Shown piece by piece: positions 7,291 through 62,490 of a DNA stretch of 64,000 nucleotides; position 1 is the stretch's first letter; each line of letters starts with the position of its first letter. Position numbers and translations under genes: made by a program. A model generated the notes under the pieces. It saw only the letters and a program-made list of their open reading frames with translations. It ran no database searches and was not told where the DNA came from. This stretch comes from Corallium rubrum (lineage: Eukaryota > Cnidaria > Anthozoa > Scleralcyonacea > Coralliidae): positions 3,219,552 to 3,283,551 of the forward strand of contig OZ036016.1 of assembly GCA_964035015.1 (NCBI GenBank). The letters are read 5' to 3'.

Positions 7291-7569
7291 CGCCGGAATA
7301 CAGTTGAAACTTGAAACAACTTGTGTTGGAAAGTGCGAGTTGCTTCATGCGAGGACTGGAAAAGGATAAGAAAATATTTAAAGTAATATTTGTTCACCAT
7401 CGTATTTCCCTCCACGACGTTTTCTTCTGGCGTCCCTGGAATGTTGATTGAGAAAGGTTAATTATATGTTTTGAGACGGATCAGGTTACAGGGCGAGGGG
7501 GAAATACTCTGTCAACATCTGTAGCGGCAGTGACAACAGTTCGAGAAAGTTTGGGTTTTTATTTCGACC

Positions 7570-26065: not shown

Positions 26066-27079
26066 TCGATGACACATCGAAATTGCTGTTTTTCTCGTTG
26101 ATATTTTTTGGCTTCGTTTTAAACTCGGAGAGCTTTTTCGAAACTGAAATCTAGTTTCTTCAATATCGAGAGACTTAACTCCTCATCTTATGTGTTGGAA
26201 TAATTACTGTGGGCTAGCGAACTGGGGAGAATAATGATATTAGATGCTGACGAAAATGATGGTGTTCCAATTCTTTCCAAAAGAACAAAAAAGTCCGTTT
26301 ACGGCTCCGATAAAAGAAGTTTCTTCCAGCGAACCCGACCGGTAGACTCGACCGGTAAATAAAAATCCCAAGATTTTCTGACGCGCAGCTCTGATTCTTG
26401 CCAAGTCAACAATTTTGTATAAAGCAAACTGAAAATTCAAAACATGATTGGAGAATTAATTCGATAATCTATACCAAACGTATTAGGTGCCATGCTTTGG
26501 CGTAATATTGAAAAAATAATACCATGCATTCGTGGTTTTCAGATTATCTTAACGGAGTTAACGCCCCTCAACATGCAGGAAATAGCGTTTCGGAGACGTT
26601 ACTTGGAAATGAAAACTTTCCTACATTAGACTCGTTGCTAACTCGTCACGCATTGATTACCGAGCGTGTTTTGGTGATAACGATGTTAGCCAATAAGAAT
26701 TCGATCTTTTAGATCCTACACTGAGAAACAGAGTCTTCCTTTCTTATCTTTCTTTCCTTCTTTTGCCAGAGAATTTTGTTTTATTCCGGTTTCGCCCCTC
26801 CCTTCCAAAATCCCCAAACATCTTATTATGCGTGTTAGTTCCGAGCAAAAACGCTGAGCGACGCACGTCAAGGAAAATCTGGACAATACACGGCTGTCAT
26901 CACTCACTATTATTTGTATTCCTGTTTTTTTGTACCTTGGTAACATAATCTGCCCACGTAGGTAAATATTTAGATCAATTTCCGCTACATAATGCTATAA
27001 CATCGGAGGTACCCGCCGGTGTGAGAACAGTTAGTGCTTCGCTCACGTATCCACCAGGAAGAGACCGGAGAAAGGAAAG
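26066..27079. other. Upstream region of the PTB gene
   Basis: No repeat structure was recognised. Short open frames on both strands have no domain signature. It probably holds the promoter and 5' UTR of the gene starting at 27080. Confidence 0.4.
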
Positions 27080-28078
27080 ATGCATCGCCCAAAACACCAA
27101 CCGTTACCCGAGTCTGTGGCAGACGAAAAGGACAAGGTTATTGCCGGGGTGAGCTACACTGTGCGCTACGTTGGAGAAGCCGATATTTTGAAGAGCGAAG
27201 GCAAAGGGAAAGGTTGCACCGATGAAGCGATCGTCGAGATCTACCAAAGGTACAGTAACAAGACGAAATTTAAGAGTTTAGCCAGACGCGAGTTGTTCGT
27301 TAGCGCCAACTGTGTCTCACTGATCGAGCCGTCCGTGGGAGCCATACTCTTTCGATATCAAACCGTCAAGATTACGTTCTGTAACACGAGCGCCGAACAT
27401 CCGAATGCATTTGTTCTTGTTGTCAAGGATTCGCCTTCTTCGCCGTTCAAAGCGCACGTAGTCCACTGCGAAAGTGCGGCCAAGGCCAACGAGATCTTCA
27501 CGATGGTGTCCCAAGCTCTCAAAGTCCGCTCGGCTTTATACCACGCGAAACAACTGGACAAAGCGGGCTGGGCGAACGGCTGGAGGAAGGCTCGTCCCGA
27601 AGAGGCCAGAGACGAAGAACCAACGACGGAGATTCGTGAGAATGGCCACTCTGCTACGGACGGCAGCGCCGACGCAAACAACAACACCTTTGGGAAAATA
27701 GCGTGCGCGAGCTCCGCATCTCAGTCCAACAGCTGGAACGAATTGGAAAGAGCGAGCGATGTACAGAACGGAGTGCGCTACGCCAACGGCGGGTCGAACG
27801 GAAGCCAGTACGCGGCCGAGTTTTCCTTGGCGAGAGTGCTACTGAGTAGAAGCCCGAGTCGTGAGAGAAGCCACAGTATGCCGTACAACAATCAAAACCC
27901 TTGGGCAGAAAACACGCAGAATGGGGATTGCATTAAGAATGCGCAAATGGACTTATCCAGAGGGCTTCTTCATAATGCGCCGAATGGAACATCCGACGAC
28001 GACGATAATGATGACTTTTCGATGCTCGCCCGAGAAAGAAGATCCTTGTCGATGTCACTAGTCCGCCCTGTAAGCTGA
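27080..28078 (+). CDS. PTB/PID-domain protein, FAM43-like
   Basis: A single-exon frame of 332 aa. Residues about 22-155 form a phosphotyrosine-binding fold: VSYTVRYVGEADIL, the GKGCTDEAIVEIY segment that is characteristic of FAM43-type PTB domains, LFVSANCVSLIE, VKITFCNTS, then VVHCESAAKANEIFTMVSQA as the closing helix. The C-terminal half is low complexity, with serine/arginine sites (SPSRERSHS) and an acidic DDDDND run. PTB adaptors bind NPxY-type tails or phospholipids; the partner here cannot be read from sequence. Base composition is clearly richer in GC and CG than the flanks, supporting real coding. The absence of introns matches vertebrate FAM43 genes. An LDLRAP1/NUMB-type relative is the alternative. 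A possible poly(A) signal AATAAA is at 28578. Confidence 0.83.
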   Translation: MHRPKHQPLPESVADEKDKVIAGVSYTVRYVGEADILKSEGKGKGCTDEAIVEIYQRYSNKTKFKSLARRELFVSANCVSLIEPSVGAILFRYQTVKITFCNTSAEHPNAFVLVVKDSPSSPFKAHVVHCESAAKANEIFTMVSQALKVRSALYHAKQLDKAGWANGWRKARPEEARDEEPTTEIRENGHSATDGSADANNNTFGKIACASSASQSNSWNELERASDVQNGVRYANGGSNGSQYAAEFSLARVLLSRSPSRERSHSMPYNNQNPWAENTQNGDCIKNAQMDLSRGLLHNAPNGTSDDDDNDDFSMLARERRSLSMSLVRPVS

Positions 28079-38865: not shown

Positions 38866-39640
38866 GAGATCTCTGAGAAAATCTCTGCTTCGTCCTGAGA
38901 CATCTCTGTGAAAACTCGACCGTATCATTATTCTGAGGTAAAAAAAACCCTCCAAAACATCCTCAAGAGGTAGTCATTATTCATCATACTCTGTAATATT
39001 TTTGTACCTTACGCAATCCAGGAGTCGTGTCGCTATTCCTTGTCGTCGATATTGCTGTAGTACCCAGACTCTGCTTATGCCGCACTGCGCACGGACCGGC
39101 GTAGAACTAGAAAACGAATCGAAGATTGAACGGTGAAAAGGCCCCATTTAGCTTACGAAGTGATCACATTACAGTACCCATGATCTTACCTGCAGCACCA
39201 GGCCCCTTGCATATCCGTTGTCTTCTGCTCGTCCTTCAGTTCAGATGGCAAGACGGGGTATGCCTATGCGATGGTATAGAGAAAAATAGATGTCAAAGAC
39301 AAATAAATGAAAGCATGGATGACTTCAGGGAACAAACTTGGAGTATAACGGCAAACACTACTTGTGTTTAACTGATGCCAAACTGAACTATAACTAAACT
39401 AACTTTAATTATCTTGGATACCATCATAATATAATTATGATAGCATCACCCTAGAGGTCCAGTCGAAACCATTCATACGGATACCTGATGAATGTCTACA
39501 GCGACCACACATCCAACTACTTTCTTGTTTGTAATGAACATATACGTCTAAATGAAACAAAAAACACGTGGTATGACAGATCGTTCGGTAGTCAAACAAG
39601 TGGAAAATGCCACTCTAGTCTTAGTCTAATCAAGGTGCGC
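38866..39640. other. Non-coding stretch
   Basis: No repeat structure or gene recognised. Confidence 0.4.
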
Positions 39641-39644
39641 AAGG

Positions 39645-39782
39645 ACAAAAAGACTGAGTACGCAAAGTGCGCGAAAACAACACGCATGATGCGCGAAGAC
39701 AGGACGCAAGGTGCGCGAAAACAACACGCGTGATGCGCGAAGACAGGACGCAAGGTGCGCGAAAACAACACGCAAGGTAAAA
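39645..39782. repeat. Minisatellite, unit about 54 bp, 2.5 copies
   Basis: 'gcgcgaaaacaacacgc', 'tgatgcgcgaagacaggacg' and 'caaggtgcgcg' repeat in order. Confidence 0.9.
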
Positions 39783-40090
39783 AAAGACACAAGATGCACG
39801 AGCACACAAATACAGCATGCAACGGCAATAAGGAAAATACAGTAGCAAAATGTTACCTTGGCGTCTTGCATTCGAAACGACGACTCGGACGAAAAACCAA
39901 GCTCGTTGTCGACTACTTTTCTTACATCAGCAACCTGTCAAAAGTAGACATACATTTCACTGGCTAAAAATCACCAACCTAGACGATCAACATCAACTGA
40001 TCAAAGTTCAACTAACCATTTTCTTTAACCTTATTTTAAAACCTACAAGTAAGCTTAAAAACCATTTTTGGAATTATCGTCGCAAAACTA
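39783..40090. other. Non-coding stretch
   Basis: Nothing recognised. Confidence 0.4.
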
Positions 40091-40326
40091 AAGGCCTGGC
40101 CAAACGCTTTCAACATTTCATTCAACATCGTTCAACATTGTTGAATTCAACTGTGATTCAACATGTTGAAAGCGTTTGGCAACCCTTGTTGAATGATGTT
40201 TAACGTTGTTCAATGGTGTTGAATGTTGTTGAACGAAATTTGAACATGTTCAAATTTTCGTTCAACATGCGTTCAACAATGTTGAACGATGTTGAATGAA
40301 ATGTTGAAAGCGTTTGGCCAGGCCTT
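40091..40326. mobile_element. TA-flanked MITE (236 bp), nearly full-length palindrome
   Basis: It begins AAGGCCTGGCCAAACGCTTT and ends with the exact inverse, with TA on both sides. The interior is made of 'gttgaa'/'ttcaac' repeats in both senses. Terminal repeats of about 38 bp are essentially perfect, so the insertion looks young. Confidence 0.9.
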
Positions 40327-40868
40327 TATACCTTCTTTAGGTGCGTAAAATGATCTTGTGGCAACACAACTATCACTCGACCGTCGTCAAAATCCTCAAC
40401 AACACGTTCAGTTTTCCAACCCTAAAATTCAACAAAATAGATTTAAACCAGACAGGAAATTTTCGTTTTTAGAAACAGTGACGTCGTGACATACCAGGAA
40501 CCTGAGACCAGTGACGAACTTTCGATGGAACTTCAAATGATCAGCCTCGTCTTCGGGTTGCGCTCGCGTGTACACCATATTACACGTAGAGCATGTCACA
40601 TGACCAAAATCCTTCTGACCCAAATCCTAAAAGGGTCAAATACAGATCTGTTAATTACTTACTAAATGAAAACCAAAAGAAAAAAATAATATTTGCAGTT
40701 ATTTGTGTCAATTCTAGAAAAAGCAAAGAAATACTGATATTTTGTGTGGAGCCTTTCATGCAAATAAAACGTCAAAACTCAAAAACGTTTTACTCTGACA
40801 AAGGACTCCACCCTTAATTTTCTTCTACATTTTGGCCCTAATAGTACAGCTCAATAATGCTTAAAGAT
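40327..40868. other. Non-coding stretch
   Basis: No gene seen. Short frames on both strands lack domains. Confidence 0.4.
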
Positions 40869-40964
40869 GAGGTAATACAAGCAACATTTTTCTTCAACTT
40901 TCAACGCAACTTTGTTGTGTTGCAAGTTGAAAAGCGTTGTTGCACGTTTTACTTCCCACCTTAA

Positions 40965-41435
40965 ACCATAGTCAATCGGGATATGGTCTGGAAACTCAGT
41001 TAAAGTCTTTGGTCTATCTTTTTGTTCGCCTTTATGCATTTTTGTGCACGGTGTACGGTCACTGAACACATTGTATTTTAGTATAATGTACGAATTGTCC
41101 AATAGATCGGTTTCACTCACGTGATCGGTGGGCCCATTGGGGTGGTGAAACAATAAGAAATATTTGAATAAGAAAGAGCTAATTCCCATGCCGTACACCA
41201 ATATGGCCGCCATTTCATTATTTTGGTACACCAATATGGCCGCCGTGACGTCAGATGAAAACGATCTATAGCAACGTTTCAGTCAATCACTCAACCGTGC
41301 TATTTAAATATTAATAAACCTACAGTAAAACAAAGGATGTGCACGGTGTAAGGTACGGTTCAACATAAAATCACAGCTCATTATATGCGCTTTGAAGTTT
41401 GCCGAGTTTCCAGACCATATCTCGATTGACTATGC
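40965..41435. mobile_element. TTAA-flanked MITE, copy B, with an insertion
   Basis: Same family as 1315-1615, also flanked by TTAA (40961-40964 and 41436-41439). It is split by a 162-bp element at 41106. Confidence 0.88.
41106..41267. mobile_element. Small MITE inside the TTAA MITE
   Basis: Inverted ends AGATCGGTTTCA and TGAAAACGATCT. Direct ATAG copies flank it (41102-41105 and 41268-41271), and copy A of the host lacks it. The interior holds a direct repeat of 'tacaccaatatggccgcc'. Confidence 0.82.
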
Positions 41436-41529
41436 TTAAACATTGTCACGCAACAATGATTTTGTTGCAAGTTTAAAAAATATGTTAAAAAAAAGTAGAC
41501 TCCAGTTCTACTTGCTGCAACATGCTGAT

Positions 41530-41833
41530 TACCCTGTGAGTCAGAGGCCCTGTCCGACCTACACAGGCTTCGGGGGAAAGTGGGCTCTGCCAACAAACTC
41601 GATATTTGCCCCAATTTCGGGCGAGTCAGTCAGGTTTTAAACTGGTCAAACAAGTTCTAGTTTATGAACACACATTAGCAGGAAAATAGCAAGTAACGCG
41701 TTAGAGCCTGGGCCCAAAATAGTATCTTGGTAACCACTCACACATGCTCAAAAAGAAATATTGAGTTTGTTGACAGAGCCCACTTTCCCCCGAAGCCTGC
41801 GTAGGTTGGAAAGGGGCTCTGACTCGCAGGGTA
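41530..41833. mobile_element. MULE-like MITE with 9-bp target duplication
   Basis: The ends TACCCTGTGAGTCAGAGGCC and GGGGCTCTGACTCGCAGGGTA are inverted, and the arms extend through 'aggcttcgggggaaagtggg'. CATGCTGAT is duplicated (41521-41529 and 41834-41842). Terminal fragments of the family lie at 2117-2145 and 42265-42285. Confidence 0.85.
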
Positions 41834-42164
41834 CATGCTGATTCAACTTGCAACAATATCATTGTTGCCTGACAATGTTTAAGTTGGGTGGTAATACATG
41901 CAACAATGCTATTCAACTTGCAACAAAATCATTGTTGCCCGACAATGTTTAAGGTGGGTGGTAATACGTGCAACAACGCTTATTCAACTTGCAAGGCAAC
42001 AATGTTGCAGCAATTTATTGCTCGTATTATTTCTCCTTGAAATACTGCAGGAAAATATATTTACCAGGTACATTTGTTCCTTTTTGCCAGAAATAGGGGA
42101 TGAGGAGGGAGAAATATCTTTTCTACAAAAATTATGAAAAAAAGTATGAATTAGTAATTATCAA

Positions 42165-42545
42165 TATTATCATAGACCTCATTTAACTAATTAATAAATT
42201 AATTAATTAAAACCTTAATTATTTAATTACATGTACATAATTAATTAAAACCCTAATTAATTAAAGGGGCTCTGAGTTGCAGAGCAGTGATTAATTAATT
42301 ATATAATTATTTTGTTAATGTATAAAGATACTAATTTGTTTAATTAAATTAATTAATTATTAAATCAACTAATTAATTAATTAATTAATCAATTAAATTA
42401 ATTAATTAATTAATTAATTAAGAATTAATTTATTAAGAATTAATTAATTAATTAGGAATTAATTAATTAGGAATTAATTAATTAATTAGGAATTAATTAA
42501 TTAATTAGGAATTAATTAATTAATTAGGAATTAATTAGTTAATTG
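42165..42545. repeat. TTAA-rich array
   Basis: (TTAA)n with a minisatellite part, unit 'aattaattaattagg', at 42430-42530. It abuts the stop codon of the minus-strand gene at 42531. Confidence 0.9.
42429..42434 (-). terminator. Possible poly(A) signal of the PIP-box gene
   Basis: AATAAA on the minus strand, 97 nt after the stop. The AT-rich setting makes chance occurrence possible. Confidence 0.4.
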
Positions 42546-43517
42546 ACTCAAAACCAACCTAGCTTTTAAATTTTTCTTGCCCTTCTTATCTGGTGTCACA
42601 TTGGCATTTCGTGAAGGCGATTTGGACTTCTCTCCTTGCATTGGAGAGAAATACTGTGTAATGCTACTTTGGTGGTCAGGAGAGCAAGTTCTTGAATTTG
42701 AACTAGAACTAATGAATCCTGATGAGCTACTGACTGGACTAAACAGAGCAGGACTTGAACACACACTTCTGTTGTCTCGTGGTGATTCCTCTAAGATTCT
42801 GAACGTCTCATGAAAACCAGAATCTCTTTGTTTGTGATGTGTCTTTGTTTCTTCAGATTTGTTAAAAGATAACCTTAAACCATCTAAATTTGATTGTCTT
42901 TTAACACGATATTCATTTTTAGTTTCATTTGATTCAATGTCTATTCTATTATCTTCTTTTATCAAGTTATCGTCACATAAATCAATGTCTTTCTTTTTTA
43001 TTATTTCAAGTTCCTGGTTAAATTCAGGAGTCTCATTTATTCTCACTAGACAGTCTTCTGAATTTTCCATGTTCATATTCACATCAAACTTTGTTTTTTT
43101 ACTCCATCTTGTGTGTGAACTGATGTCATTGGACGTATCGAGAGAACGTCGCTTTCCTGATGAAATGTCCTTCAGTATAGGACTAGTTTTAATTTTACTA
43201 ACAGAAACCTTTTTAGGGCTACTTCCAGCACTTTTTCTTGTTTCATTAAAGAAACAAGTTTTTTTACCAAATACATTTCGAACAGGTTTATTTACAGACA
43301 TGGTGAATTTCTTATTATTTTTGACTGGTTTGGATTTCACTTGAGCTTTTGAAGATATTTTCACATTTTTATTAGTTGATACATCAACAGACATTACAGG
43401 TTGTTTGGGAGTGATTTTTTTCAATCCTGAACAAAGATGATTTTTCTTTTGGCTATAGAAGTTTAGTGCCTTGATTCTGTTTTGGTCATCCCCATTGGAA
43501 TTGACCTCTTTTTCCAT
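42531..43517 (-). CDS. Disordered basic protein with PCNA-interacting (PIP-box) motif, probable last exon
   Basis: An open frame of 328 aa. It is rich in Ser, Lys and Asn, with many SP/TP sites (for example SSPKK, SPALFSP, CSPD), and no folded domain is visible. Residues 283-290, QSSITQYF, fit the PIP-box pattern Q-x-x-[ILM]-x-x-[YF]-[YF], followed by basic residues toward the C-terminus. A VRNVFG segment at about residue 80 resembles cyclin-binding RxL/RNLFG motifs. Together these suggest a DNA replication, repair or cell-cycle protein, such as the tail of a larger scaffold. This is inference. An in-frame stop directly precedes the first Met, and a good acceptor (TTTTTAG) lies at about 43602 with another frame open across the junction, so the true 5' structure is unresolved. 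The gene may start further upstream on the minus strand. Confidence 0.6.
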   Translation of the reverse strand: MEKEVNSNGDDQNRIKALNFYSQKKNHLCSGLKKITPKQPVMSVDVSTNKNVKISSKAQVKSKPVKNNKKFTMSVNKPVRNVFGKKTCFFNETRKSAGSSPKKVSVSKIKTSPILKDISSGKRRSLDTSNDISSHTRWSKKTKFDVNMNMENSEDCLVRINETPEFNQELEIIKKKDIDLCDDNLIKEDNRIDIESNETKNEYRVKRQSNLDGLRLSFNKSEETKTHHKQRDSGFHETFRILEESPRDNRSVCSSPALFSPVSSSSGFISSSSNSRTCSPDHQSSITQYFSPMQGEKSKSPSRNANVTPDKKGKKNLKARLVLSQLTN

Positions 43518-46118: not shown

Positions 46119-48983
46119 TCACCAGTAAAGTGTTTTACTGAAGAAATTGCTCACTGATCCTAACCAGCCTTGATTTTCTTTATCTTCATTTTTATTTACT
46201 TTTGCCAGTGCCTAAAAACAAAAATTAAGAAAGTCAGGATGTTCACTTTCAAAAAATGATGTTCTTATTGTAAAATGGTTCATATGTTTTATAAAATGTC
46301 TTGCCAGTTTCAATTACTGTAATCACTCACTCAGTCTGTTCAGAGCTGATGGTTCAAATCAAGCTACATGTTCTTCTGAACCACATGTTCAAGTCCATGA
46401 AACAATAAATTATGATATTAAAGTATAAGAATCAACTCAGTATACCGTTTACTCCTAAATAATTTATTCAAAAACTGAATTTTTCCTTTTTTTTGACATT
46501 TTGGTGCCTCTTTGTTCAAACAGTTGGGGATCACTTCTGAAAGTAGTACATTGCTGTCTTGTGCTCTGCCAGTTCTCAAAAATTCAACCAATACAATATA
46601 TGTGTTTTGTTTTGTTTCTCTGACTTACAGATTTGGATACAGGTGGTTGGTCATCATCTTCAGGAAGATAGTCTGGTAATGTGGCATTATCAGTTTGTGC
46701 TGCTGTGGAACTTTTATTCTGGCTTTTATTATGAGTGGTGGAGTTTAATGGCAGTATGACCTACAAGAGAATAAGAGAAAACCCAACAAAACATTGAACT
46801 GTAAGTAAGGGAGAGAGTTAAAGTAATATGGTAGGGACTAGAGGTCCATAGGTGTACTTGACCAGTTATGTTTGGGGGGGGGGGGGGGGGAGGACATTTT
46901 TGACCGAAAAATTAAGAGTCGACTGTCGATTATTAGTAAGATGTATTCAACATACGATAATGAATATTCAACAGCAAGATTACCCGAATTTACCCGAAAT
47001 TTCTTTCAAAAAGTGCCCGAAATTTTCATTTTAAAATTTTTTTTTTTTTGGGAGGGGGGGGGGGGCAATTGTCCCCCCTGCCTGGTACACCTATGATAAG
47101 GGCCAGCCTTCATTTATCCAGTGTTAGACTTCACGAGGAAACCAAAGTATGGTACCTCTCCAAAGAAAAACTGTGGTCAGGTGTTTGGTAGGTCAGACTA
47201 AAAGCACTCTTCTCACACGAGGAAAGCTGAAATTTTGGCTTTGAACCCAGTAAGTCACAAAGGTGAAAGGCATGCATGCAAAGAACATTTTGTAAAGTTC
47301 GTTGTAAATTTTCAGCTTACCTCTTCTCCTCGTTCATTCTTCACAATCTGTTGAGCACTGAGAACTTTGGTCTTATTTATTTCTGCACAAATACTTTCTG
47401 CCAAGACATCTGATCTTGCACGAACAATACATCTGAACCTTGCCATATCAAAGGTAAAGCTGATAACTCCTTTAAGTGCCAGTAATTGCTCCTCGCAGAT
47501 ACGCTTTGTGATCTCATAAAATAATTAAATTACAACAGCATCAGCCTATAGTAAAATTGGTTGTACATTTGTATAGATTTGCATACATATAACATTTGTG
47601 GTTACCATACCTGGTTTGAAAGTCCTTTTACTTGTATGATATAAGTTTTGGATCTTCTGTTGGAACTGCGGAGAACAGGTCCTGATTGCCGATTGCTAGA
47701 ATGATCACAAAAGATTGAAACAAAAAGTTAATGAAAAAAGAACTTAACACAGTACTGTAATAGAGCATTACGGCTCTGTCAACATTATTACCTGGTGGTG
47801 TTGCTTGGCCTGCGAGGTTGCTCTTGAGATTGGCTTAAAGCATCATATACCTCTGTAGCTGCTTGTTTTGTTTTTGCATCACCATTTCTGTTTTTAATTA
47901 ATAGTGATATTAAAAAAGATCTAAATTGTTACAGTCCCATGGGACAACTTACAGTCCGTAAGGACTAATTACAGTCCCTAGGGACATATTACAGTCCCTA
48001 GGTACTAATTACAGTCCCTAGATACTAAGTACAGGGACAAATTATAGTCCCTAGGGACAAATTACTATCCCTAGGGACAGATTACTATCCCTAAGGATTA
48101 ATTACAGTCCCTAGAGATTAATTACAATCCCTCGAGACAAATTACAGTCCCTACAGACTTCATACAGTCCCCAGAGACAAATTACAGTCCCTAGAGACTA
48201 ATTACAGTTCCCCAGGGACTAATTACAGTCCCTAGGGACGAATTGTAGTCCCTAGGGACTATGGTGCAAATAAAAGCTGACACCCTGACAGACAAGTACA
48301 GCATTCTTACCATGTTTCTTATTTATATATTCTGTAAAATAGTACGATCATACCTGTGTATAATAGCTCTCAAACTTTCCAGCATTCCCAGCTCATTCTT
48401 CATAATCACCCGATTTGGCTTGTGCTGTGCCAAATTCTTCAAGGCCTAATGTAACATTTGACAAAAAAATAAATATAGTGTTCATTCCTGCCTGAGCTAG
48501 CTACTGTTTTATATAAAAAAAGTTAATAGATTACATAACATTGACTCTATATAATATTTCAGAATCTCACACATAGTTTTATACTAGTATTAAATATATA
48601 AAATATTTCTATTACTTTAGAAAAATAGATAATATATTTATTTTGGATTTGAATATGATCAGGTGGGAAGGTCTTTAAATTCAAACTACAGGCGTATGTC
48701 TTTCAGCCAAGAATTTCAAAATGTTATTTATTTATTACCTGAAGTGCTGTGCTTACAACTCGAACATCACTATTGTCAAGGAACAAGACAAGACCGGCCA
48801 AACAACCTTTATCCTGAGAAAAACACAAAATTATTTAGATAAAGTGGTGCCTTGCGTTAATTTCCACCATTCTCATTTATGTCGAAAATTTTAAAAGATT
48901 TATTGTACCTTTACAATTGTTGCTCTGTTTTGAGGGTTGGCCGTTAACTCTCTTAAATGCTCTACCAATCCAATAGCCTCCAT
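46119..48983 (-). CDS. ARMC1: Armadillo repeat-containing protein 1
   Basis: Eight coding exons resolve completely on the minus strand, all GT-AG: 48909-48983, 48739-48813, 48354-48445, 47792-47887, 47611-47695, 47321-47512, 46629-46760 and 46119-46211. The protein is 279 aa, as long as vertebrate ARMC1 (about 282). The N-terminal armadillo-like part has GCLAGLVLFLDNSDVRVVST and NELGMLESLRAII. The centre (about 128-195) is an HMA/ferredoxin-like fold, TYIIQVKGLS, then LLALKGVISFTFDMARFRC, without the CxxC metal site. ATLPDYLPEDD and the C-terminus WLGSVSNFFSKTLYW are near-identical to the family. ARMC1 is known to be cytosolic and on the mitochondrial outer surface, linked to mitochondrial distribution and to MICOS/DNAJC11 partners; the terminal amphipathic segment probably anchors it. 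The start Met has no in-frame alternative. It is divergent from the MTFR gene, with ATGs about 225 bp apart. Confidence 0.96.
46860..47100. mobile_element. MITE with G-run arms in an ARMC1 intron
   Basis: 'cataggtgtacttgaccag' (left, about 46848) is mirrored by 'ctggtacacctatg' (about 47080-47093). A G-run follows each end. Confidence 0.65.
47928..48262. repeat. Minisatellite of palindromic units in an ARMC1 intron
   Basis: About 15 copies of 'attacagtccctagggac' plus 2-4 bases (period about 22). Each unit contains the dyad GTCCCTAGGGAC or a decayed form. It is located between coding exons 3 and 4. Confidence 0.92.
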
Positions 48984-49207
48984 ATCGTTAAGAAGAAACT
49001 ATTTTGAGTAAAAGAAATCAAGAAGCTTTCAGCCTTTCTATAAATCGTCGTGTGACCGGTGACTGTTGCTATTTCAAACGAATTATTTTGAACAGCGGCG
49101 CGATGCAATCTGATTGGCGAATATTTGTAATACTCGAACCTGATTGGTCGAAGGGTTTTAAATCCCCGAGGTATATTCATTTTCCAAACAAGAAACGGCT
49201 TGGAATC
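48984..49207. promoter_or_regulatory. Bidirectional promoter of ARMC1 and the MTFR gene
   Basis: The 224 bp between the two start codons carry two ATTGG (CCAAT) boxes, near 49111 and 49143, plus a GC-rich patch 'cagcggcgcgatg' at 49093. No TATA box is evident. CCAAT/NF-Y sites are frequent in divergent housekeeping promoters. Transcription start sites cannot be read from sequence. Confidence 0.7.
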
Positions 49208-52200
49208 ATGTGTGAATACGAATCAATGGATCCCGATACAGAGATCAATTTTCGAGAAGAAATTGCACGGATTGTGCAGTTTTTAGTGGAGTTTTATCGC
49301 GGACTTCGTGAAGGGAACGAAGAAGAGATATTTTTCTTGGTAAGGTATCATCTTTCGTTGCTATTTACATGTATTCATTGTTTGCGAATTTTGGCATCTC
49401 TCCACTCAAGTTGGGGGCTTCTATTAAAGCTTTGCCTTTTGCTAGCTTGCTTCTTTCGCTTGATTTTATAGCGATGGCGTCCAGCTTGTCTTCGTAGAGA
49501 TGGCCGACACAAGAGTGTCGTCAGATGGCTGGGGAATCGTCTGCCTCGTGGTTTTGCCGACTCGTGTGAGGCTTTCAACTACAGGAATTTGTTGGGAACA
49601 ATTTTTACGACAAGAAGCTTAGTGAGGGAGATTGGAAATCGATTACCATTGCAGCCAAGCAAGAGGCCGTATTTTTATGTAAGATTGGAAACAAAATCTG
49701 ATATCAAGTTTTTTAGTAATTTACAGTCACTCCCCCCCCTGCTTCCTCCTTGATCAGCAGATTAAGCAACCCCCCTTTCAATTGACTAATTCATGAGAAC
49801 TCCATTCTCAATATCTGGACAAGATTTTCACCTATTACTTTGGTTTTGGTCTCTACTTCATTGATGGTCCTGAGATCTGAAATGGGTGTAATAGACTTGA
49901 CTTTTTGCCCCGAGTTAGCATTCCAAATATTGGGAATGGAGTTCACTGGTTAAAGCCTAGTCTTCGTATGACAAGTTGCTGATGACATACCACAATGTTG
50001 CTGACATTAAAAATTCAGATATCCAGGCTGGCTTATTAACCCTTTATCGCCCAGTAGCCACTTGATTGATGAGTAAAATCTTCTGGTGTTAGCCAGAGTA
50101 AAATACCAAAGGCATCGTTGGGTGATAAAGGGTTAACCGAGATAGTCTATTAACCCTTTATTGCCCAGTAGAGAGTAAAATACTAAAGAGATTGTTGGGT
50201 GATAAAGGGTTAAAGCCAGAATTTTGAAAGAAGGGTGTCCATTTCCATGGTGCATGTCAATCCCCCCAAAATGTCCAGAAGTTTAAAAGTCCAAAGGTCA
50301 CCATGAGGCTAAGGAAGTAAATTCATGTCAGTGTCTTTGGAGCACTAAAGTATAATGTTGGATTCATTCACAGTTTTTCGAACATTTTCAACTTTGCGAG
50401 TTTGTGTCATCATGCATTAAATTGTGTGGATTAGTGATATTGATAAACTACTTTTTGTAAAAATGTATATGTTAGGTAACTCATTGAGAATAATTTCCTT
50501 TATCTTTTAAATTTTGGGCATCCATAGCCATCCACTTTTCATTCTAGGGCATCCCAGGATGCCTGGACACCCTTCTGGCTAAAAGCCTGCAGACATCACA
50601 ACCTGCCACAGAATAATGAACTATATGAATTGTGGGATTTTAAGATACTGCTGATGACATTAGATCATAAACCACGAACTTCAAGGGAGAGGGGGAGATG
50701 TTTTTGTGCATAATCTCAGGAATTCATGTGCTTAACTTTTTTTTACTTGACTGTCTGAGTTAATTTTGGCCAGGATTGTAGTTTTCCCACCACACCACAT
50801 GCCTCCAAAAAACCCCAACAAGATCTTGTTTGTTTTTTTCTTTGAAACAAACAAACAAACAAACAAACAAACAAACAAACAAACAAACAAACAAACAAAC
50901 AAACAAACAAACAAACAAACAAAAAACAACCCAAAACAAACTTGCCCATGGAGCAGGCTAAAGTTTACCATAGTTCCTATTATAGTATTTACCCATCACT
51001 GTACTATCCTGATCCAAAAAATGCTGTTACATATTCTAAATAGAATATCTCAATGACTCCTTATTTTCTGTTGAACTTTCATTTTAAGTAAGCCAAAAAA
51101 ACAATTTGCAGTAGACTCTGGAATATATTTGATTTGTGATCTTATTTTTTAGATGCTTCACAAACCAGCGACTGAAATGTGTTCCACTAGATTAAAGGGG
51201 TCTAGTAGTACAAGATTTGTGCATAGCACACCTTGTCGGAACAGCATCAGCCCAAATTCTATTGTGTGGCAGGGCAATAACGAGAGCTACCAGGAAAACA
51301 CGTTTAATCAAAGTTCAGCTGTGGTTACAGCTGATACTGCCCAGAAAATCACAGCTCTGGAAGATGAACTGAACCGGTTACGAGCCCAGATTGCTGGATT
51401 TGTATTGAATCAGGAGGATCCCACAGCTACAAGTAGGCCACTACTCGTTATTACTTAAATAACGCCGTTAGTGTAGGGGCGACTTAATTTTAAGTTACAG
51501 TAATTACGTAATCAAACGTCTTATAACGTCGCGTAACGTCCTATAACGTGTTATCAGGTAGCATAACATCTTATAAAATAGCATAACGCCTTGTAACGCA
51601 GCATAACGTATTATAACGTCGCGCAACGTATTATAACGTAGTGTAATGTCTTATAACCGAGGTGAGCCGATGTTAAAAAAAAGCCGATTGCCGATACCGA
51701 TTGTTAAGAGCCGTTATTTCCCCACCATCGGCTGATTAATCGGCAAAACCGATGTTTGCTAACCTGATGCTCAGTGCTCCCGTTTTGTCGTTTTATTCAT
51801 CTCAAGTTTTGCAATGAGAGGAAGTCATCAAGTCAATTCTCGTATTTTGAGCGCAAACCGATTTTGTAACGTGACCGAGAACGCGATTATTGACGCCGTA
51901 CCACAGACGCTCGCTCTCCCATTTTGACGGGAGGGTTGCGGCTGTACACAGGCTATGATAAACGAGGACGAAAGAGCAGAAATACGAGGACGAGAGTCAC
52001 GAGACAGCCGATCCGATGGTGAAAGACAATCGGCCGATGGCCGATTGTGAGAAAAACTAACCGTTAATCGGCTCTGCCGATGTTTTGCCGATGATCGGCT
52101 CACTTCTATAACGTAGTGTAATATCTTATAACATAGCATAACGTATTATAACATAACGTAACGTCTTATGACGTAACGTAACATCTTATAATGTAGCGTA

Positions 52201-55200
52201 ACGTCTTATATAACGTAGCGTAACGTCTTATAACGTAGCGTAACGTCTTATAACGTAGTGTAACGTCTTATAACGTAGTGTAACGTCTTATAACGTAGTG
52301 TAATGTCTTATAACGTAGTTTAATGTCTTATAACGTAGTGTAATGTCTTATAACGTAGTGTAATGTCTTATAACGTAGTGTAATGTCTTATAACGTAGTG
52401 TAATGTCTTATAACGTAGCGTAATGTCTTATAACGTAGTGTAATATCTTATAACATAGCATAACATATTATAACACAACGTAACGTCCTATGACGTAACG
52501 TAACATCTTATAATGTAATGTAATGTAACGTAACGTCTTATAACGTAGCCTAATATTCTTGACTATAATTCTTTTTAAATGTTCTACAGCAGTTACACCA
52601 CCCAGTCTGGTACCACCGCCTCCTCCTCCACCACCTCCCCCTCCTCTACCTTCGGTTACGTCATCCATACATGTACCACAAACCACCAAGAAAGTGAGTA
52701 GTAAGAATATCGTCTCTCATCAGTAAATATGTTGAAGTGTCTGTATCAGGGGCGTAGGAAGCAGTGTTACTTTGGGGGGGGGGGGGGGGGGGGGCTACTT
52801 GAGTTTGTGTAATGCGCATTCGCGGCTTTGCCACAAATCCGCCTAGGGGGTCCACGACTAGTTTTCAGCTTCAGAAAAATGGTCACATAGCATGGGGGTT
52901 CTACCTATGTGCTGTGCGTACTGGGTTCTACTGCAGCCCAGGCCCCTCGCGTCCCTGCCTGGTGATGCCTGCAGAGAAATAGATTTCGGTCATATGACGA
53001 ATTTCCCGTTCTGTACGAAAGAAATTCATATTTTTATGGTGTTAGGAGGATTTATTTTTTATTTTTATAAATTATTACCAACCATCTCTTTAACTCATTT
53101 AATCTCTAACCGTAGTTGGGCAAAATATTGGGGGGCTAATATCAGCAAGATAAAATATTGGGGGGGCTGCAGCCCCTTAGCCCCCCCGGTTCCTACCCTT
53201 GGTCTGTATATCATAATTTGAGCTTTTTATATTATATAATACATGTATTTATAATCTTATGCACTTTCTGATAAGAATTGCTTCATAATTATCATCAACT
53301 AAAGTTTCATATTGGTATGCCTTTTTCTTCTGCTTCAACTCACGGGCATGCAAAAGTTTGTTGAATCGCTCAAAAGTGAAAGTTTGGGAGTAAATTTTGT
53401 CTAAACAGGCCTGTCAAAGTTCAGAGCAAACTCTCTTCCCAACCTCGTCCCCAGGGCCATTTGTGGGGGCTGGGCCAAGATGGCGGCCAAAAACAAAATG
53501 GCGGGAACAAATGGCCCTGGTGGAAGCTAGCTCAAAATGCGCAGTATACTGCGCATTTTATTAACTAGAACTCAGTTCTTTACACAGTAATTATACCTAA
53601 TTACACCTAATTATGGCATCGTTTAAAATATAATTTCCCGTGCCGTATGCAGGAACAACCGACAAGGTCAAAATACAATTTTTAAAAAAAAATACAAAAT
53701 CAAACCGTCTGATTTACGCCATAAGCTCTTGAGCAATCAGAGGCTGAGATAGCCTAGCCTCCACCAGGGCCATTTGTTCCCGCCATCTTGGCCCAGTTCC
53801 CTACAAATGGCCCTGGGTACGAGGTTGACTCTCTTCCTTCATTGTGTAACGTATTATGGTTGACGTCATTTCCTGTGAAGATTAAATCAACTTTAGTAGA
53901 AGAAAAAGACAATATCAAGATGAAACTTTAGTTGATGATTATAATAATCAATTCGTATCAAAAAGCACCAAAGATTATAAATATAGAAAAAAGCTTAAGC
54001 ATGAGACAAGCACTTTATTTAGCTCTTTGAATAGAATGATCAGGTTTGAGCTCGCATAGTGTCTTGCACAATTCTCTCTAAGGGGCTGTTAACATGAATC
54101 CGGATTGACTTTCAATCCTGATTGAACCCATTCCGCTTCTGATCAAATCCCTTTATCTGTTTTAACCTGATAAAGGGATTTGATCAGAAGCGGAATGAGT
54201 TCAATCAGGATTGAAACTCAATGTAAATGTAATAAATGTAATACATGAATCCCGATTGAGATTAGCTCATTCCGGATTGAGGTCAACCGTTTCTCATTCC
54301 GAATTGAAATCTCATTCCGGATTGAAATTTCGTTCCGGAATCATGTAAAGGCGGTGCGAGTTTCATTCCGGAATGAAAAACGTGACAGAGAGGACTAGAA
54401 CAAATAATGCATGCGTGTTTTCCAATATTTACGGATTTCAGATTTCATGCGGATTTCAATCCAGAAACCCAATTCCCATGTAAACACGGATTGACTTCGC
54501 ATTTCAATCCGGATTCATGTAAACGGCCCCTAACTAAGCGCAAAACTTAAAACTGAAAATAGTTTTCTTATGAAAATAGAAGGCTGCAGTAAGTAAAGAT
54601 GGCTCAGTGATGGATATGACTGCGATTTTAAAAGACCTAAATCAAGTGAAATTAAAAGCTGTTGAAAGGTATAAATCAGACTAAATTTTCAAACGAGATT
54701 GCTGTGTGTTGCTATAGTCTGCGCGCTACAGTTATTTAGTAAATTTACATTTAAAAAGGTCCCCAGGAGGAACGCCAGTCAGAAGAGCGCCTCGACGAAC
54801 GAAAGGAACCGACCCAGCCTCGATTATTGCTGATGCCTTGAAGAGCAAGTTCGCAAAGTCAAGAATGGCGGTTGCTTCACCAGGTTAGTAGCGGTTACTT
54901 CATCTCACGTTACATATTTTACTTTACTTTACTTTACTTTACTTTACTTTACTTTACTTTACTTTACTTTACTTTACTTTACTTTACTTTACTTTACTTT
55001 ACTTTACTTTACTTTTTACTTTACTTTACTTTTTAAGCACGGGAAGCACGGGTGGCGTGTGCTGTTAGGGCGCTGCCTCTCACCGCTGTAGTTAAGCCCA
55101 GTCGGACGGGGTTAGTACTTGGATGGGTGACCGTCTGGGAATAGCTCCGTTCTCAAACTTGAATTTCATGTGAGTAGAGTTTAGTTGGTCTCTCCTGTGC

Positions 55201-56210
55201 TTCGAGGGTTTTTCGCAGGGTTCTGCGGTTTTCCTCCCTTTGTAAAACCAACACTTAGGTCTTAGTTTATGTCGTGCACTTTTAACATGAGCCTCTGGCT
55301 CGGATGATTGGGCGACCACATCCTGTGTTTACGACGTTAAATAAATCATTACTCAAATAAATCATTACTCGTTACTCATTACTTTACTTTACTTTTTACT
55401 TTACTTTACTTTACTTTACTTTACTTTACTTTACTTTACTTTACTTTACTTTACTTTACTTTACTTTACTTTACTTTTTACTTTACTTTTTACTTTACTT
55501 TATTTTACTTTACTTTACTTTACTTTACTTTACTTTACTTTACTTTACTTTACTTTACTTTACTTTACTTTACTTTTTACTTTACTTTACTTTTTACTTT
55601 ACTTTTTACTTTACTTTACTTTACTTTACTTTACTTTACTTTACTTTACTTTACTTTACTTTACTTTACTTTACTTTACTTTACTTTACTTTACTTTACT
55701 TTGCGTTGCGTTGCGTTGCGTTACGTTACGTTACGTTACGTTACGTTACGTTACGTTACTGTACTTTACTTTACTTTACTTTACTTTACTTTACTTTACT
55801 TTACTTTACTTTACTTTACTTTACTTTACTTTACTTTACTTTTACTTTGTAACATCAGTCACTACCAACAATAATCTTACTCAAGACTACACTAACCTAG
55901 ACGAACAACTCTCACACAAAAGTGTTATCTTTATTGTAGATAAAGAGAACATTCATTCCAACAGTCCTGGCAATTCGTTTAGTAATACACCAAGTCCCCA
56001 GCCACACTTTAGGAAACCTCTGAGTCAAACTTGTCAGGTAAGTGGCTTAGGGTAACCGGAGCAATATGTGTAATATTTACATGCATTCTTCAACTTGTTT
56101 TTGTTAACGGCGAATGGCTATTGTGCTAACTATTTTCTTTTTATCTTAAGAACGAAAGATCAGCGAGCAATGTGGAAATTAAAAGCCACGCCATTCCACT
56201 ACGGGTTTAA
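49208..56210 (+). CDS. Mitochondrial fission regulator (MTFR1/MTFR2 family)
   Basis: Eight coding exons resolve with consistent GT-AG phases: 49208-49339, 49472-49678, 51153-51432, 52590-52693, 54580-54668, 54759-54883, 55859-56037 and 56151-56210, giving 391 aa. Family hallmarks in order: TTRSLVREIGNRLPLQPS (90-107), coiled-coil KITALEDELNRLRAQIAGF (178-196), an 11-proline run (about 214-224), LKDLNQVKLKAVERSPGGTP (about 258-277), and DPASIIADALKSKFA (about 290-304). Vertebrate members are 290-390 aa, act on mitochondria and promote or restrain fission and respiration. The arginine-rich RWRPACLRR segment (45-53) could aid mitochondrial targeting. Start: Met at 49208; a further in-frame Met at 49226 is possible, while the frame opening at 49004 overlaps CCAAT boxes and lies 21 bp from the ARMC1 start, so I reject it. 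The exon 4 acceptor may alternatively sit 3 bases downstream. The symbol is left open because MTFR1 and MTFR2 diverged in vertebrates. Confidence 0.94.
50040..50132. mobile_element. piggyBac-like MITE 1 (TTAA-flanked)
   Basis: TTAA, then CCCTTTATCGCCCA at the left, and TGGGTGATAAAGGG then TTAA at the right. 93 bp, in MTFR intron 2. Confidence 0.8.
50154..50209. mobile_element. piggyBac-like MITE 2 (TTAA-flanked)
   Basis: A shorter copy (56 bp) of the preceding element with the same ends, only 17 bases from its TTAA. The interior is deleted relative to copy 1. Confidence 0.8.
50845..50936. repeat. (AAAC)n microsatellite
   Basis: About 22 AAAC units in MTFR intron 2. Confidence 0.97.
51480..52560. 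repeat. Minisatellite, unit TAACGTAGTGTAATGTCTTA, interrupted by a MITE
   Basis: The 20-bp unit with point variants fills 51480-51657 and 52107-52550. It lies in MTFR intron 3. It is interrupted once by a 449-bp element. Confidence 0.95.
51658..52106. mobile_element. MITE inside the minisatellite
   Basis: Ends CGAGGTGAGCCGAT and ATCGGCTCACTTC are inverted. TATAAC is present on both sides as the probable target duplication. 'gccgat'/'atcggc' repeats fill both arms. Confidence 0.75.
52742..53212. mobile_element. MITE with G-run arms in an MTFR intron
   Basis: 'ggggcgtaggaagcag' (left) and 'cccggttcctaccc' (right) are inverted. A long G-run (52774-52794) and C-run (53182-53188) follow inward, and 'aaatattgggggg' is repeated. 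Confidence 0.7.
53440..53827. mobile_element. MULE-type MITE, short copy, with 10-bp target duplication
   Basis: Same terminal repeats as 22267-23195 (CAACCTCGTCCCCAGGGCCA). ACTCTCTTCC is duplicated at 53430-53439 and 53828-53837. 388 bp, in MTFR intron 4. Confidence 0.88.
54082..54530. mobile_element. PIF/Harbinger-like MITE with TAA target duplication
   Basis: Ends GGGGCTGTTAACATGAATCC and GGATTCATGTAAACGGCCCC, flanked by TAA (54079-54081 and 54531-54533). The interior has a perfect hairpin around 'gataaagggatttgatcag' and many 'cattccgg' units. It ends 49 bp before MTFR exon 5. Confidence 0.82.
54918..55034. repeat. (TTTAC)n pentanucleotide array, left part
   Basis: About 22 ACTTT units left of the 5S-like SINE. 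Confidence 0.95.
55035..55376 (+). mobile_element. 5S-rRNA-derived SINE
   Basis: The head (about 55040-55155) contains 'gttaagcccagtcgg', 'gggttagtacttggatggg' and 'gaccgtctgggaata', which match the 3' half of 5S rRNA, including the internal control region (box C). The tail is a unique region with 'cctgtgtttacgacg' and ends 'aaataaatcattactc', repeated. The divergence and added tail show a SINE3-type retroelement, not a 5S gene. It lies inside (TTTAC)n in MTFR intron 6. Confidence 0.8.
55377..55849. repeat. (TTTAC)n array, right part, with GCGTT and ACGTT variants
   Basis: Roughly 90 units. Near 55703-55757 the unit switches to GTTGC/GTTAC before returning to TTTAC. It ends 10 bases before MTFR exon 7, so it forms most of that intron's 3' end. 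Confidence 0.95.
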
Positions 56211-58798: not shown

Positions 58799-61700
58799 CT
58801 ACTCACTTGTCATCACCAGCTTCACAACACTTGCCTCAGTGCCTGTTTGCTCGTCCATATCATTGACGTGTACAGCCAGATTCGTCATCCCAACATCCGG
58901 GTCCTGAACTTCATCACTTTTGGGGCTTTCGAGTTTTAACTCTGGATCACAGTGAGTAATATTGTTGGACACTTCCTCGTTTTTAGGGTCTGTGTTCATT
59001 GCTTCTTCGTTCTGTTCTTTGGGCGTCTCAGATTTCTTGTCCGGGTCAACAGGTGTGTCGTTACTGGGTGATTGTTGTGCTTCTTGTGAAATACTTGAGT
59101 CTGAGGTAATTTTCTCGTCTTGTGGTGGTGTTGGCTCCGGGTCTTCGCTTGATACAGTTACATAATTTAACTCCATATCTACTTCCACCGTCTCCATTTG
59201 AAGTCCTTTTGTTTCCACTTTTGAATCTTCTGCACTGGAAGGGCTTTCGTTTACTTTTGTTTCTTGTTCCACTTCTTCGTCAATTGTCGTGTTAGTGATC
59301 CCTCGGTTCTGTTCCACTGTAACTGTAGCATTGCTAGGACCTGGTTCAGTGAGTGACGTATCGGCAGTTTCGTTAATGATGGTGACCTAAACAAACCAGG
59401 AAGGTATATGGTTAGCAAGTACTGAAGAAGAAGAAGAAGAAGAAGAAGAAGAAGAAGAAGAAGAAGAAGAAGAAGAAGAAGAAGAAGAAGAAGAAGAAGA
59501 AGAAGAAGAAGAAGAAGGAGGAGGAGGAGGAGGAGGAGGAGGAGGAGGAGGAGGAGGAGGAGGAGAAGGAGAAGGAGAAGGAGAAGGAGAAGGAGGAGAA
59601 GAAGGAGAAGGAGGGGGAGGGAGGAGGAAGAAGAGGAAGAGGAAGAAGAAGAAGAGGAGGAAGAAGAGGAAGAGGAGGAAGAAGAGGAAGAGGAGGAAGA
59701 AGAGGAAGTGGAAGAGGAAGAAGAAGAGGAAGAAGAAGAAGAGGAGGAAGAAGAGGAAGAGGAGGAAAAAGTGGAAGAGGAAGAGGAGGAAGAAGAGGAA
59801 GTGGAAGAAGAAGAGGAGGAAGAAGAAGAAGAGGAGGAAGAAGAAGAAGTGGAGGAAGAAGAAGAAGAGGAGGAGGAAGAAGAAAGAGGAGGAGGAGGAA
59901 GAAGAAAGAGGAGGAGCAGAAAAACATGAATAACAGGAAGAAGAAAACAAAGAAGAAAAACGAACAACAACAAAACTACGACTAAGGAGAAGAAGAAGTC
60001 AGAAGAAGAAGAAAATGATGAAGAACTTTGACAAGAAGATGATGATGAAAAAGATGATGAAAAAGATGATGATAGAGAAGTAGAGGGGGAAAGAAAAACA
60101 AAAGGAAGATGGAGAAAAAGACGAAGAAAAAGGAGAAGAAGAAGAACATGAGTAGGAAAGAAAGAGCAGAGGAAGAAGAAGTAGGAGGAGGAATAAGAAG
60201 GCGAAGACACTGAAGAGGTAGAAGAGGAAGAAGCAGAAGACAAAGAGTAGTGGGAGAGAACGAAGAAAAGGAGGGTGATCAGGAAGAGGAGAAAAGAAAG
60301 AAAAGACGCAGAAGAGGAAAAAGAGCAGGAAAGAGAGAAGAAGAAAACTAAAAAGAGGAAAGAAATAGAAGAGGAGGAAGAAGAAGTAGAAGAAGATGAT
60401 GATGATGAAGAAGACGAAGAAAAAGTAGAAGAGGGAAAAAATGACGAGCATAACGAGAGGACGCAAGGAGCGGGAAAAGAAAGAGAAGAGGAAGAAGCAG
60501 TAGAAGAAGAAGATGATTAAAAAGACGAAGAAGAAAAAGTAGAATAGGAAGAAAATGACGAGGATAACAAGAGGACGCAAGAAGCGGGAAAAGAAAGAGA
60601 AGTGGAAGAAGCAGTAGAAGAAGAAGATGATTAAAAAGAAGAAAAAGTAGAATAGGAAGAAAATGACGAGGATAACGAGAGGACGCAAGAAGCGGGAAAA
60701 GAAAGAGAAGAGGAAGAAGCAGTAGAAGAAGAAGATGATTAAAAAGACGAAGAAGAAAAAGTAGAATAGGAAGAAAATGACGAGCATAACGAGAGGACGC
60801 AAGAAGCGGGGAAAGAAAGAGAAGAGGAAGAAGCAGTAGAAGAAGAAGAAGAAGATGATTAAAAAGACGAAGAAGAAAAAGTAGAATAGGAAGAAAATGA
60901 CGAGGATAACAAGAGGACGCAAGAAGCGGGAAAAGAAAGAGAAGTGGAAGAAGCAGTAGAAGAAGAAGATGATTAAAAAGAAGAAAAAGTAGAATAGGAA
61001 GAAAATGACGAGGATAACGAGAGGACGCAAGAAGCGGGAAAAGAAAGAGAAGAGGAAGAAGCAGTAGAAGAAGAAGATGATTAAAAAGACGAAGAAGAAA
61101 AAGTAGAATAGGAAGAAAATGACGAGCATAACGAGAGGACGCAAGAAGCGGGGAAAGAAAGAGAAGAGGAAGAAGCAGTAGAAGAAGAAGAAGATGATTA
61201 AAAAGACGAAGAAGAAAAAGTAGAATAGGAAGAAAATGACGAGGATAACGAGAGGACGCAAGAAGCGGGAAAAGAAAGAGAAGAGGAAGAAGCAGTAGAA
61301 GAAGAAGATGATTAAAAAGACGAAGAAGAAAAAGTAGAATAGGAAGAAAATGACGAGCATAACGAGAGGACGCAAGAAGCGGGGAAAGAAAGAGAAGAGG
61401 AAGAAGCAGTAGAAGAAGAAGAAGATGATTAAAAAGACGAAGAAGAAAAAGTAGAATAGGAAGAAAATGACGAGGATAACGAGAGGACGCAAGAAGCGGG
61501 GAAAGAAAGAGAAGAGGAAGAAGCAGTAGAAGAAGAAGATGATTAAAAAGACGAAGAAGAAAAAGTAGAATAGGAAGAAAATGACGAGGATAACGAGAGG
61601 ACGCAAGAAGCGGGAAAAGAAAGAGAAGGGGAAGAAGTAGAAGATGATGAAGAAAACGAAGAGAAAAGTAGAATAGGTAAAAAATGACGAGGATAACGGG

Positions 61701-62490
61701 AAGACGCAATAGAAGGAGAAGAAGGACAAGAAAAAGTTGACTTATAAAATATACCTGGCAGAATCATAAGATGCAAGTCCTTTGTGCACAGACCTACCTG
61801 ATGTCGATGTACACTTTTCTTGTGCGAAATTAATTGGATTCCAGAATGCTTTTCGTTACTCATTTCCTGAAAAAGATTACCATAACATATAAGACCTACA
61901 AACCGATCAGATACCTTCCTAGTATAGGTACACACGTAAAAACACACAACTTGTTCACGGTTGTCAACAGGCGTGAACAATGTTGTGCTGCTCGCCGTGA
62001 ACAAGTTGTCAACAAGTTGTTCACTTATGGTTCGAACAACTTGTTCACGGATAAATCAACAGTCATGAACAAGTTGTTCCAACAGCACATTTTTATAGCC
62101 AACAACGTTGTTCGCACATGATACAACATGCTGTAACAGCGCGACGAAATAACAACGATGAACAACAATGTTACAACAGTGTTGATGTATCAACACGTTC
62201 TTTGGCTGTTACAACATGCGTGAACAACGGTTGTTGTTTCAAGCTGGAACAACTTGTTGAAACAATGATGAGCAATGTTGTTCATTTATCAATGTTGTTC
62301 ACATATGTCAACAAGTTGTTACAGCATTGTTGCAAGTTGTTACAGCATTGTTCAGGCAACAATGCTGTAACAACTTGCGAGATTTTTACGTGTGTAGATG
62401 AACTTCATTTTTAATATCTGGAGGCTCGCCTCGCTGGTGTTACTCTACCTGGCCGTGGGGATCTTCAAGCTCCTTCACAAAAGACGCCAT
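58799..62490 (-). CDS. Unrecognised acidic, low-complexity protein (three coding exons seen)
   Basis: Exons on the minus strand, all joined in phase 0: 62449-62490 (MASFVKELEDPHGQ), 61798-61866 (EMSNEKHSGIQLISHKKSVH start) and 58799-59386. Splice sites are good: CAG|GTAGAG, TTCAG|GAA, CAG|GTAGGT, TTTAG|GTC. The third exon encodes a Glu/Asp/Ser/Pro/Thr-rich disordered stretch. It either ends at the stop at 58799 (232 aa in total) or is spliced at 58807 (ACAA|GTGAGT, phase 1) to exons I could not find. A possible 5' UTR exon ends at 62616 (CTTCG|GTAAGT), with its acceptor at 62508. I do not recognise the family and no membrane segment or domain is visible. The intron between exons 2 and 3 is almost entirely satellite. 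Confidence 0.6.
59424..59930. repeat. (GAA)n/(GGA)n compound microsatellite in an intron
   Basis: A purine-only run of about 500 bp. Poly-Ser, poly-Leu, poly-Phe, poly-Pro and poly-Glu frames are all artefacts. Confidence 0.97.
59931..61715. repeat. Purine-rich satellite, unit about 110-120 bp, about 11 copies
   Basis: Units read 'gacgaagaagaaaaagtaga', 'ataggaagaaaatgacgagg', 'ataacgagaggacgcaagaa', 'gcgggaaaagaaagagaaga' and so on. Copies from about 60390 to 61660 are very similar, alternating 'gaggataac' and 'gagcataac' variants in a pairwise order, which suggests a two-unit higher-order repeat. Frames of up to 576 codons on the minus strand result from the pyrimidine-only strand lacking stop codons. 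Confidence 0.95.
61935..62400. repeat. Inverted and tandem 'aacaacttgttca' repeats
   Basis: 'gtgaacaacttgttcac'-type dyads repeat throughout. 'acacgtaaaaa' at the left edge (61931) is mirrored by 'tttttacgtgt' at the right (62386), so the block is a MITE with an internal array. It lies in intron 1 of the minus-strand gene. Confidence 0.75.

Follow-up and report, generated by a model that had tools for sequence, protein, structure and literature searches.

A head-to-head ARMC1–MTFR gene pair in Corallium rubrum and its candidate shared promoter

Why do two genes for proteins of the mitochondrial surface stand head to head in a coral genome, separated by a spacer of promoter length? The question is raised by a locus of Corallium rubrum on contig OZ036016.1 (assembly GCA_964035015.1), analysed here as a stretch of 64,000 nucleotides (positions 3,219,552 to 3,283,551, forward strand; hereafter the window), in which ARMC1 on the minus strand and MTFR on the plus strand are divergently arranged with their ATGs at 48983 and 49208, leaving 224 bp between them. 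This confirms the layout described in an earlier sequence-only reading of the window, which had put the gap at about 225 bp. The explanation that we favour, with moderate confidence, is that ARMC1 and MTFR are an old divergent adaptor/client pair, with a single NF-Y/CCAAT promoter inside the 224-bp gap serving transcription in both directions. We infer both that a single promoter serves the two genes in this animal and that the complex formed by their products is the reason the pair stayed together.

ARMC1 was modelled as eight coding exons encoding 276 amino acids (minus strand, ATG at 48983, stop ending at 46119), with GT/AG boundaries at all seven introns and an in-frame TAG 18 nt 5' of the ATG. 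Residues 16–56 matched the Arm repeat model PF00514 at 22.8 bits (Pfam cut-off 20.6). No ARMC1-specific Pfam model matched, and identity beyond the Arm repeat was assigned by alignment to a human ARMC1 sequence (282 amino acids), with which all seven residues numbered in PMC11980836 agree. The two proteins share the same residue at 116 of 265 aligned positions (44%), and identity among mammals is given as >97% (PMC6808451). The same alignment located a metal-associated-like domain, which by eye is without CxxC, and a conserved C-terminal domain, in which the tail that localises human ARMC1 is recognisable. For MTFR, seven coding exons were found on the plus strand (309 amino acids up to 56037), matching Pfam Mito_fiss_reg (PF05308). 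The sequence-only reading had considered both genes fully resolved, which stands for the coding exons of ARMC1 and fails for MTFR, whose 3' end is unsure. When the genome (474 Mb, 312 contigs) was searched with the MTFR protein, all seven matches fell at this locus, in a search that a diverged paralogue could escape.

The spacer (48984–49207) contains 13 CpG, with an observed/expected ratio of 1.59, and two predicted, inverted CCAAT boxes carrying the full NF-Y motif CTGATTGGY 30 bp apart, CTGATTGGC at 49110–49118 and CTGATTGGT at 49140–49148 (both plus strand). CCAAT boxes between the two ATGs had been reported earlier and are present as claimed. Two copies of CTGATTGG, a motif picked post hoc after inspection of the sequence, occurred together in 0 of 10,000 dinucleotide shuffles of the spacer, while the bare ATTGG core occurred at least twice in 9.1% of shuffles, and two same-strand ATTGG cores 27–37 bp apart in 0.5%. 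Across the window CTGATTGG was not enriched (four matches versus a shuffle mean of 1.75, with at least four in 10 of 100 shuffles), and two of the four matches are the spacer sites themselves. Because the motif was chosen post hoc, its core is not rare, the window as a whole shows no enrichment and copies recur across the genome, the spacer sites fit a promoter without proving one.

In 300-bp segments the CpG observed/expected ratio was 1.55 for the segment starting at 49000 and 1.15 for that starting at 49250, and in the flanking gene bodies it was 0.16–0.78 (starts 47500–48750) and 0.00–0.63 (starts 49500–50750). A CpG-rich region extends across both starts (1.59 in the spacer versus 0.00–0.78 in the flanking gene bodies), and the spacer may be an unmethylated-type promoter patch lying between two body-methylated genes. 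With ATGs taken as a proxy for transcription starts, ARMC1 and MTFR are also a bidirectional pair in the usual sense of divergent genes with <1 kb between starts. One promoter probably drives both.

The sequence-only reading had further proposed that the two proteins act together in mitochondrial dynamics, and work in human cells bears this out: ARMC1 acts there as a binding partner that stabilises the MTFRs and connects them to MIRO, and its knockout lowers MTFR1, MTFR2 and MTFR1L through proteasomal degradation (PMC11980836). The proposal is thus correct yet already published (PMC11980836), and a contact between ARMC1 and MTFR1L from interactome data was cited by 2019 (PMC6808451). The ARMC1 copy number in human cells is also close to the summed copy numbers of MTFR and MIRO, and the modelled human interface with MTFR involves ARMC1 D27, D37 and D49, with the D37R mutation breaking the complex (PMC11980836). 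Against the human sequence, the C. rubrum protein keeps two of these three aspartates, D37 and D49, of which D37 is the residue whose mutation breaks binding. At the four acidic positions that contact DNAJC11 in human (D239, E243, D244 and E245), the C. rubrum residue is the same except at the last, where it is D. A single gene in the genome matched PF14972 (176.9 bits), which we take to be the TMEM11 family. The likeness to the human ARMC1–MIRO–MTFR–TMEM11 complex (PMC11980836) extends to the same protein families, to D37 and D49, to the larger part of the acidic motif that binds DNAJC11, and to the presence of a TMEM11-family gene. An ARMC1–MTFR complex may also form in C. rubrum.

In the mechanism that we propose, ARMC1 would be the adaptor and MTFR its dependent client, encoded by an old divergent pair. 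The NF-Y/CCAAT promoter in the spacer would support transcription of both genes. At the outer membrane of the mitochondrion ARMC1 would recruit MTFR to MIRO and TMEM11, and any MTFR without ARMC1 would be degraded. A common promoter would then keep the amounts of the two proteins matched, with the client not running ahead of its adaptor. Selection to keep a shared promoter, as the sequence-only reading had suggested, is plausible. Only tentatively do we extend this to all animals, with one NF-Y promoter acting as a stoichiometry device since before the split of cnidarians and bilaterians, and with flies and nematodes having lost both genes as a unit. If this were true, gene order would have predicted a complex whose workings were not established until 2025. 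Were the pair to prove head to head across animals, it would be a clear instance of deep gene order pointing to proteins that physically associate, and it would single out the matched dosage of ARMC1 and MTFR as the selected trait. The pair also suggests a general screen, for divergent gene pairs of deep conservation where the protein from one gene stabilises that of its neighbour.

Several observations weigh against a shared NF-Y promoter and a conserved complex. The CpG patch is ordinary by the standard of the window, where the median observed/expected ratio is 0.98 and 88 of 637 300-bp segments hold as many CpGs, and some of the CpG-poor segments contain tandem repeats. Cores for NRF1, GABPA, YY1, E2F and CRE were not found in the spacer. 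Genome-wide, the paired NF-Y pattern has 197 occurrences versus four for a reversed control, and many of its copies, among the matches listed, belong to repeat families. The human genes, which we take to be divergent with a gap of about 10 kb, are presumably too far apart for one short promoter in mammals. A family search of the genome turned up neither MIRO nor DNAJC11, but its controls were silent too, and genes split into short exons would escape it. The third interface aspartate, human D27, is N in the C. rubrum protein, and the human system also differs in having three MTFRs (PMC11980836) where one locus was found here.

The paired NF-Y pattern was also considered as a genome-wide promoter signature and was rejected, since many of the matches listed are repeats. 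Near-identical paired-CCAAT stretches were seen on contigs C1, C18, C20, C23 and C28, some as opposite-strand copies about 31–33 kb apart, which suggests terminal sequences of a large mobile element family. At locus L017, an open reading frame (ORF) resembles by eye the end of a hAT-type transposase.

Gene order was compared between this genome and mammals by way of published tables. Ten ORFs of the window beyond the pair were scanned against Pfam and five scored above a cut-off, giving as recognised neighbours an ESCO-type acetyltransferase gene, a PTB-domain gene that we label FAM43-like and a CABIT+SAM gene that we take to be GAREM-like. In human, a de novo deletion of 0.61 Mb (chr8:66140254-66753892) is tabulated with ARMC1 and MTFR1 as its sole listed genes (PMC4074351), supporting the earlier statement that the two are neighbours there. 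In cattle, ARMC1 lies on BTA14 at 31.70–31.72 Mb and PDE7A at 31.80–31.91 Mb, and MTFR1 is among the genes of the surrounding 2.97 Mb, a statement of linkage and not of adjacency (PMC10486602). Mammals appear to keep the arrangement in looser form. The cattle neighbours include CYP7B1, BHLHE22, PDE7A, DNAJC5B, TRIM55, CRH, RRS1, ADHFE1 and MYBL1, and none of those named in the relevant part of that paper is an ESCO, FAM43-like or GAREM-like gene (PMC10486602). Since the recognised neighbours differ from those in cattle, at least some of the flanking sequence has changed around a pair that was itself retained.

These comparisons bear on a possible though doubtful alternative, which partly overlaps with the explanation that we favour: the pair is old and survived passively through slow decay of gene order, co-function being coincidental or weakly favouring, and the gap is that of an ordinary compact promoter pair. 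It gains from the fact that two lineages were compared (this animal, and mammals by way of papers), and from the short gap seemingly lost in mammals. A 2012 study by Irimia reportedly describes ancient neighbours retained for cis-regulatory reasons that have nothing to do with a shared complex, which counts in the same direction. By contrast, passive survival sits less well with retention of the pair beside recognised neighbours that differ from the cattle ones (PMC10486602), with the chance that a rough null model gives two particular genes of lying next to each other head to head, about 2e-5 across the whole genome or 5e-4 inside a linkage group of 1000 genes, and with the finding that functional relatedness is commoner among divergent pairs that are conserved (PMC2871058).

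We consider it unlikely that ARMC1 and MTFR are neighbours with separate, non-overlapping promoters, or with a distant 5' exon, and share no promoter. The room for such an arrangement comes from the start of MTFR, for which 49103, 49208 and 49226 are candidates; the head-to-head layout holds with each. The MTFR frame is open upstream as far as 48992 and includes the extra ATG at 49103, openness that arose in 0.9% of shuffles for that frame and in 9.9% for any of six. Codon usage scored 0.06 bits/codon for 48992–49102, –0.25 for 49103–49207 and 0.04 for MTFR exon 1 (non-coding mean –0.18, s.d. 0.16), making the outermost segment as coding-like as exon 1, in a test that is too weak to settle the MTFR start. 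Conversely, the in-frame stop 18 nt 5' of the ARMC1 ATG, the start of MTFR exon 2 just 602 bp from that ATG and the single CpG-rich patch spanning the spacer and MTFR exon 1 all argue against such an arrangement. An independent origin of the adjacency in this lineage and in vertebrates, for which a comparison spanning this lineage and mammals without intermediate lineages leaves some room, is highly improbable given that a second head-to-head adjacency would arise at ~2e-5 under random gene order.

The history of the two genes in insects offers a further view of the pair. Both Armc1 (GB18050) and Mtfr (GB17835) are on a list of 30 genes shared by bee and vertebrates that flies, beetle, silkworm and the nematode (elegans) lack (PMC2656531). 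If one is on the list, the chance that its partner is there too is ~0.3%, with an assumed round ~10,000 bee genes. This suggests that ARMC1 and MTFR were lost jointly, in a screen by which fast-evolving short proteins are easily missed. In the passages of that paper on the list, no link between Armc1 and Mtfr is drawn (PMC2656531). Likewise, a text search of the available part of PMC11980836 found nothing on synteny or gene order, and no paper treating ARMC1–MTFR1 as a conserved or bidirectional unit was found, mostly from listings; supplementary tables, which lay outside the search, may list the pair.

Divergent and deeply linked pairs are a kind of feature already known, and the functional match of this one is unusually clean. 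HSPD1 and HSPE1 are both mitochondrial. Chicken CCDC152 is reportedly served by an NF-Y-driven bidirectional promoter, the likeness being CCAAT-type control between divergent transcripts, read here from sequence alone. HSPD1/HSPE1 resembles ARMC1/MTFR in being a head-to-head pair of genes for two heat-shock partner proteins, and differs in belonging to other families and in being an established example in several species (PMC2871058). The PDI/RhoGDI microsynteny is a deep animal pair that can be detected in cnidarians, and its two proteins bind one another, but its genes share the same orientation whereas ARMC1 and MTFR are divergent with a 224-bp gap (PMC5722932).

The gene models on which the layout rests are as follows. 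The coding exons of ARMC1, all on the minus strand, begin with exon 1 at 48909–48983 (with the ATG) and exon 2 at 48739–48813, which bears D26 and D38, the counterparts of D37 and D49 at the MTFR interface of the human protein. Exons 3 (48354–48445), 4 (47792–47887) and 5 (47611–47695) were placed by the gene model. Alignment to the human protein assigns the metal-associated-like domain to exon 6 (47321–47503), LPDYLPEDDD, the counterpart of the human DNAJC11-binding acidic linker, to exon 7 (46629–46760), and the C-terminal domain, which in human serves mitochondrial targeting, to the last coding exon with the stop (46119–46211). A PDB sequence search with ARMC1 gave designed and generic armadillo proteins. 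Within an ARMC1 intron, at 47929–48259, a 20-bp repeat (TTACAGTCCCTAGGGACAAA) recurs about 17 times.

For MTFR, exon 1 (49208–49344, plus strand as are the others; ATG at 49208, alternatives 49103 and 49226) lies ahead of the Mito_fiss_reg profile and contains a predicted amphipathic helix; within it falls the 18-residue segment that ranks 1 of 291 in MTFR for helical hydrophobic moment. Here the sequence-only reading required correction: it had ended exon 1 at 49339, a plausible donor, but homology requires 49344, 5 bp on, and its exon set lacked exon 2 (49585–49678, TTRSLVREIGNRLPLQP, placed by homology). With this exon added and the donor shifted, the match to Mito_fiss_reg (cut-off 26.3) reached 64.6 bits, up from 45.1. 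Exons 1 and 2 alone scored 24.8 bits against the start of the profile, just below the cut-off, with residues 55–76 corresponding to profile positions 12–33. A direct join of exon 1 to 51153 was dropped, as the intervening DNA encodes TTRSLVREIGNRLPLQP; it could exist as a minor isoform. The remaining exons are 3 (51153–51432, a conserved helix block), 4 (52590–52693, with the poly-proline stretch), 5 (54580–54668, the ILKDLNQVKLKAVER block), 6 (54759–54883, the DPASIIADALKSKFA block) and 7 (55940–56037), with a further exon after 56037 unsure. A PDB sequence search with MTFR gave no match at E up to 0.01. An MTFR intron contains arrays of 10/20-bp repeats of the TATAACGTAGTGTAACGTCT type at 51515–51657 and 52107–52523. 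As expected, searches of prokaryote and virus contig collections yielded no relative.

Elsewhere in the window, the ESCO1/2-type cohesin acetyltransferase gene (38980–43517, minus strand) lies 3' of ARMC1 on the same strand and matched zf-C2H2_3 at 60.1 bits and Acetyltransf_13 at 51.7 bits. The ORF at 42534–43517 is probably its first exon; it had no Pfam match and contains QSSITQYF, which we take to be PIP-box-like. On the plus strand, a CABIT ORF (7534–8838, 90.3 bits) and a SAM ORF (10265–10669, 40.4 bits) are probably one gene, the GAREM-like one, and the FAM43-like PTB-domain ORF (27035–28075, 347 amino acids) matched PID_2 at 40.2 bits. Beyond the MTFR exons, GAA-type and 114-bp repeats in tandem make up more than 2 kb at 59424–61709.

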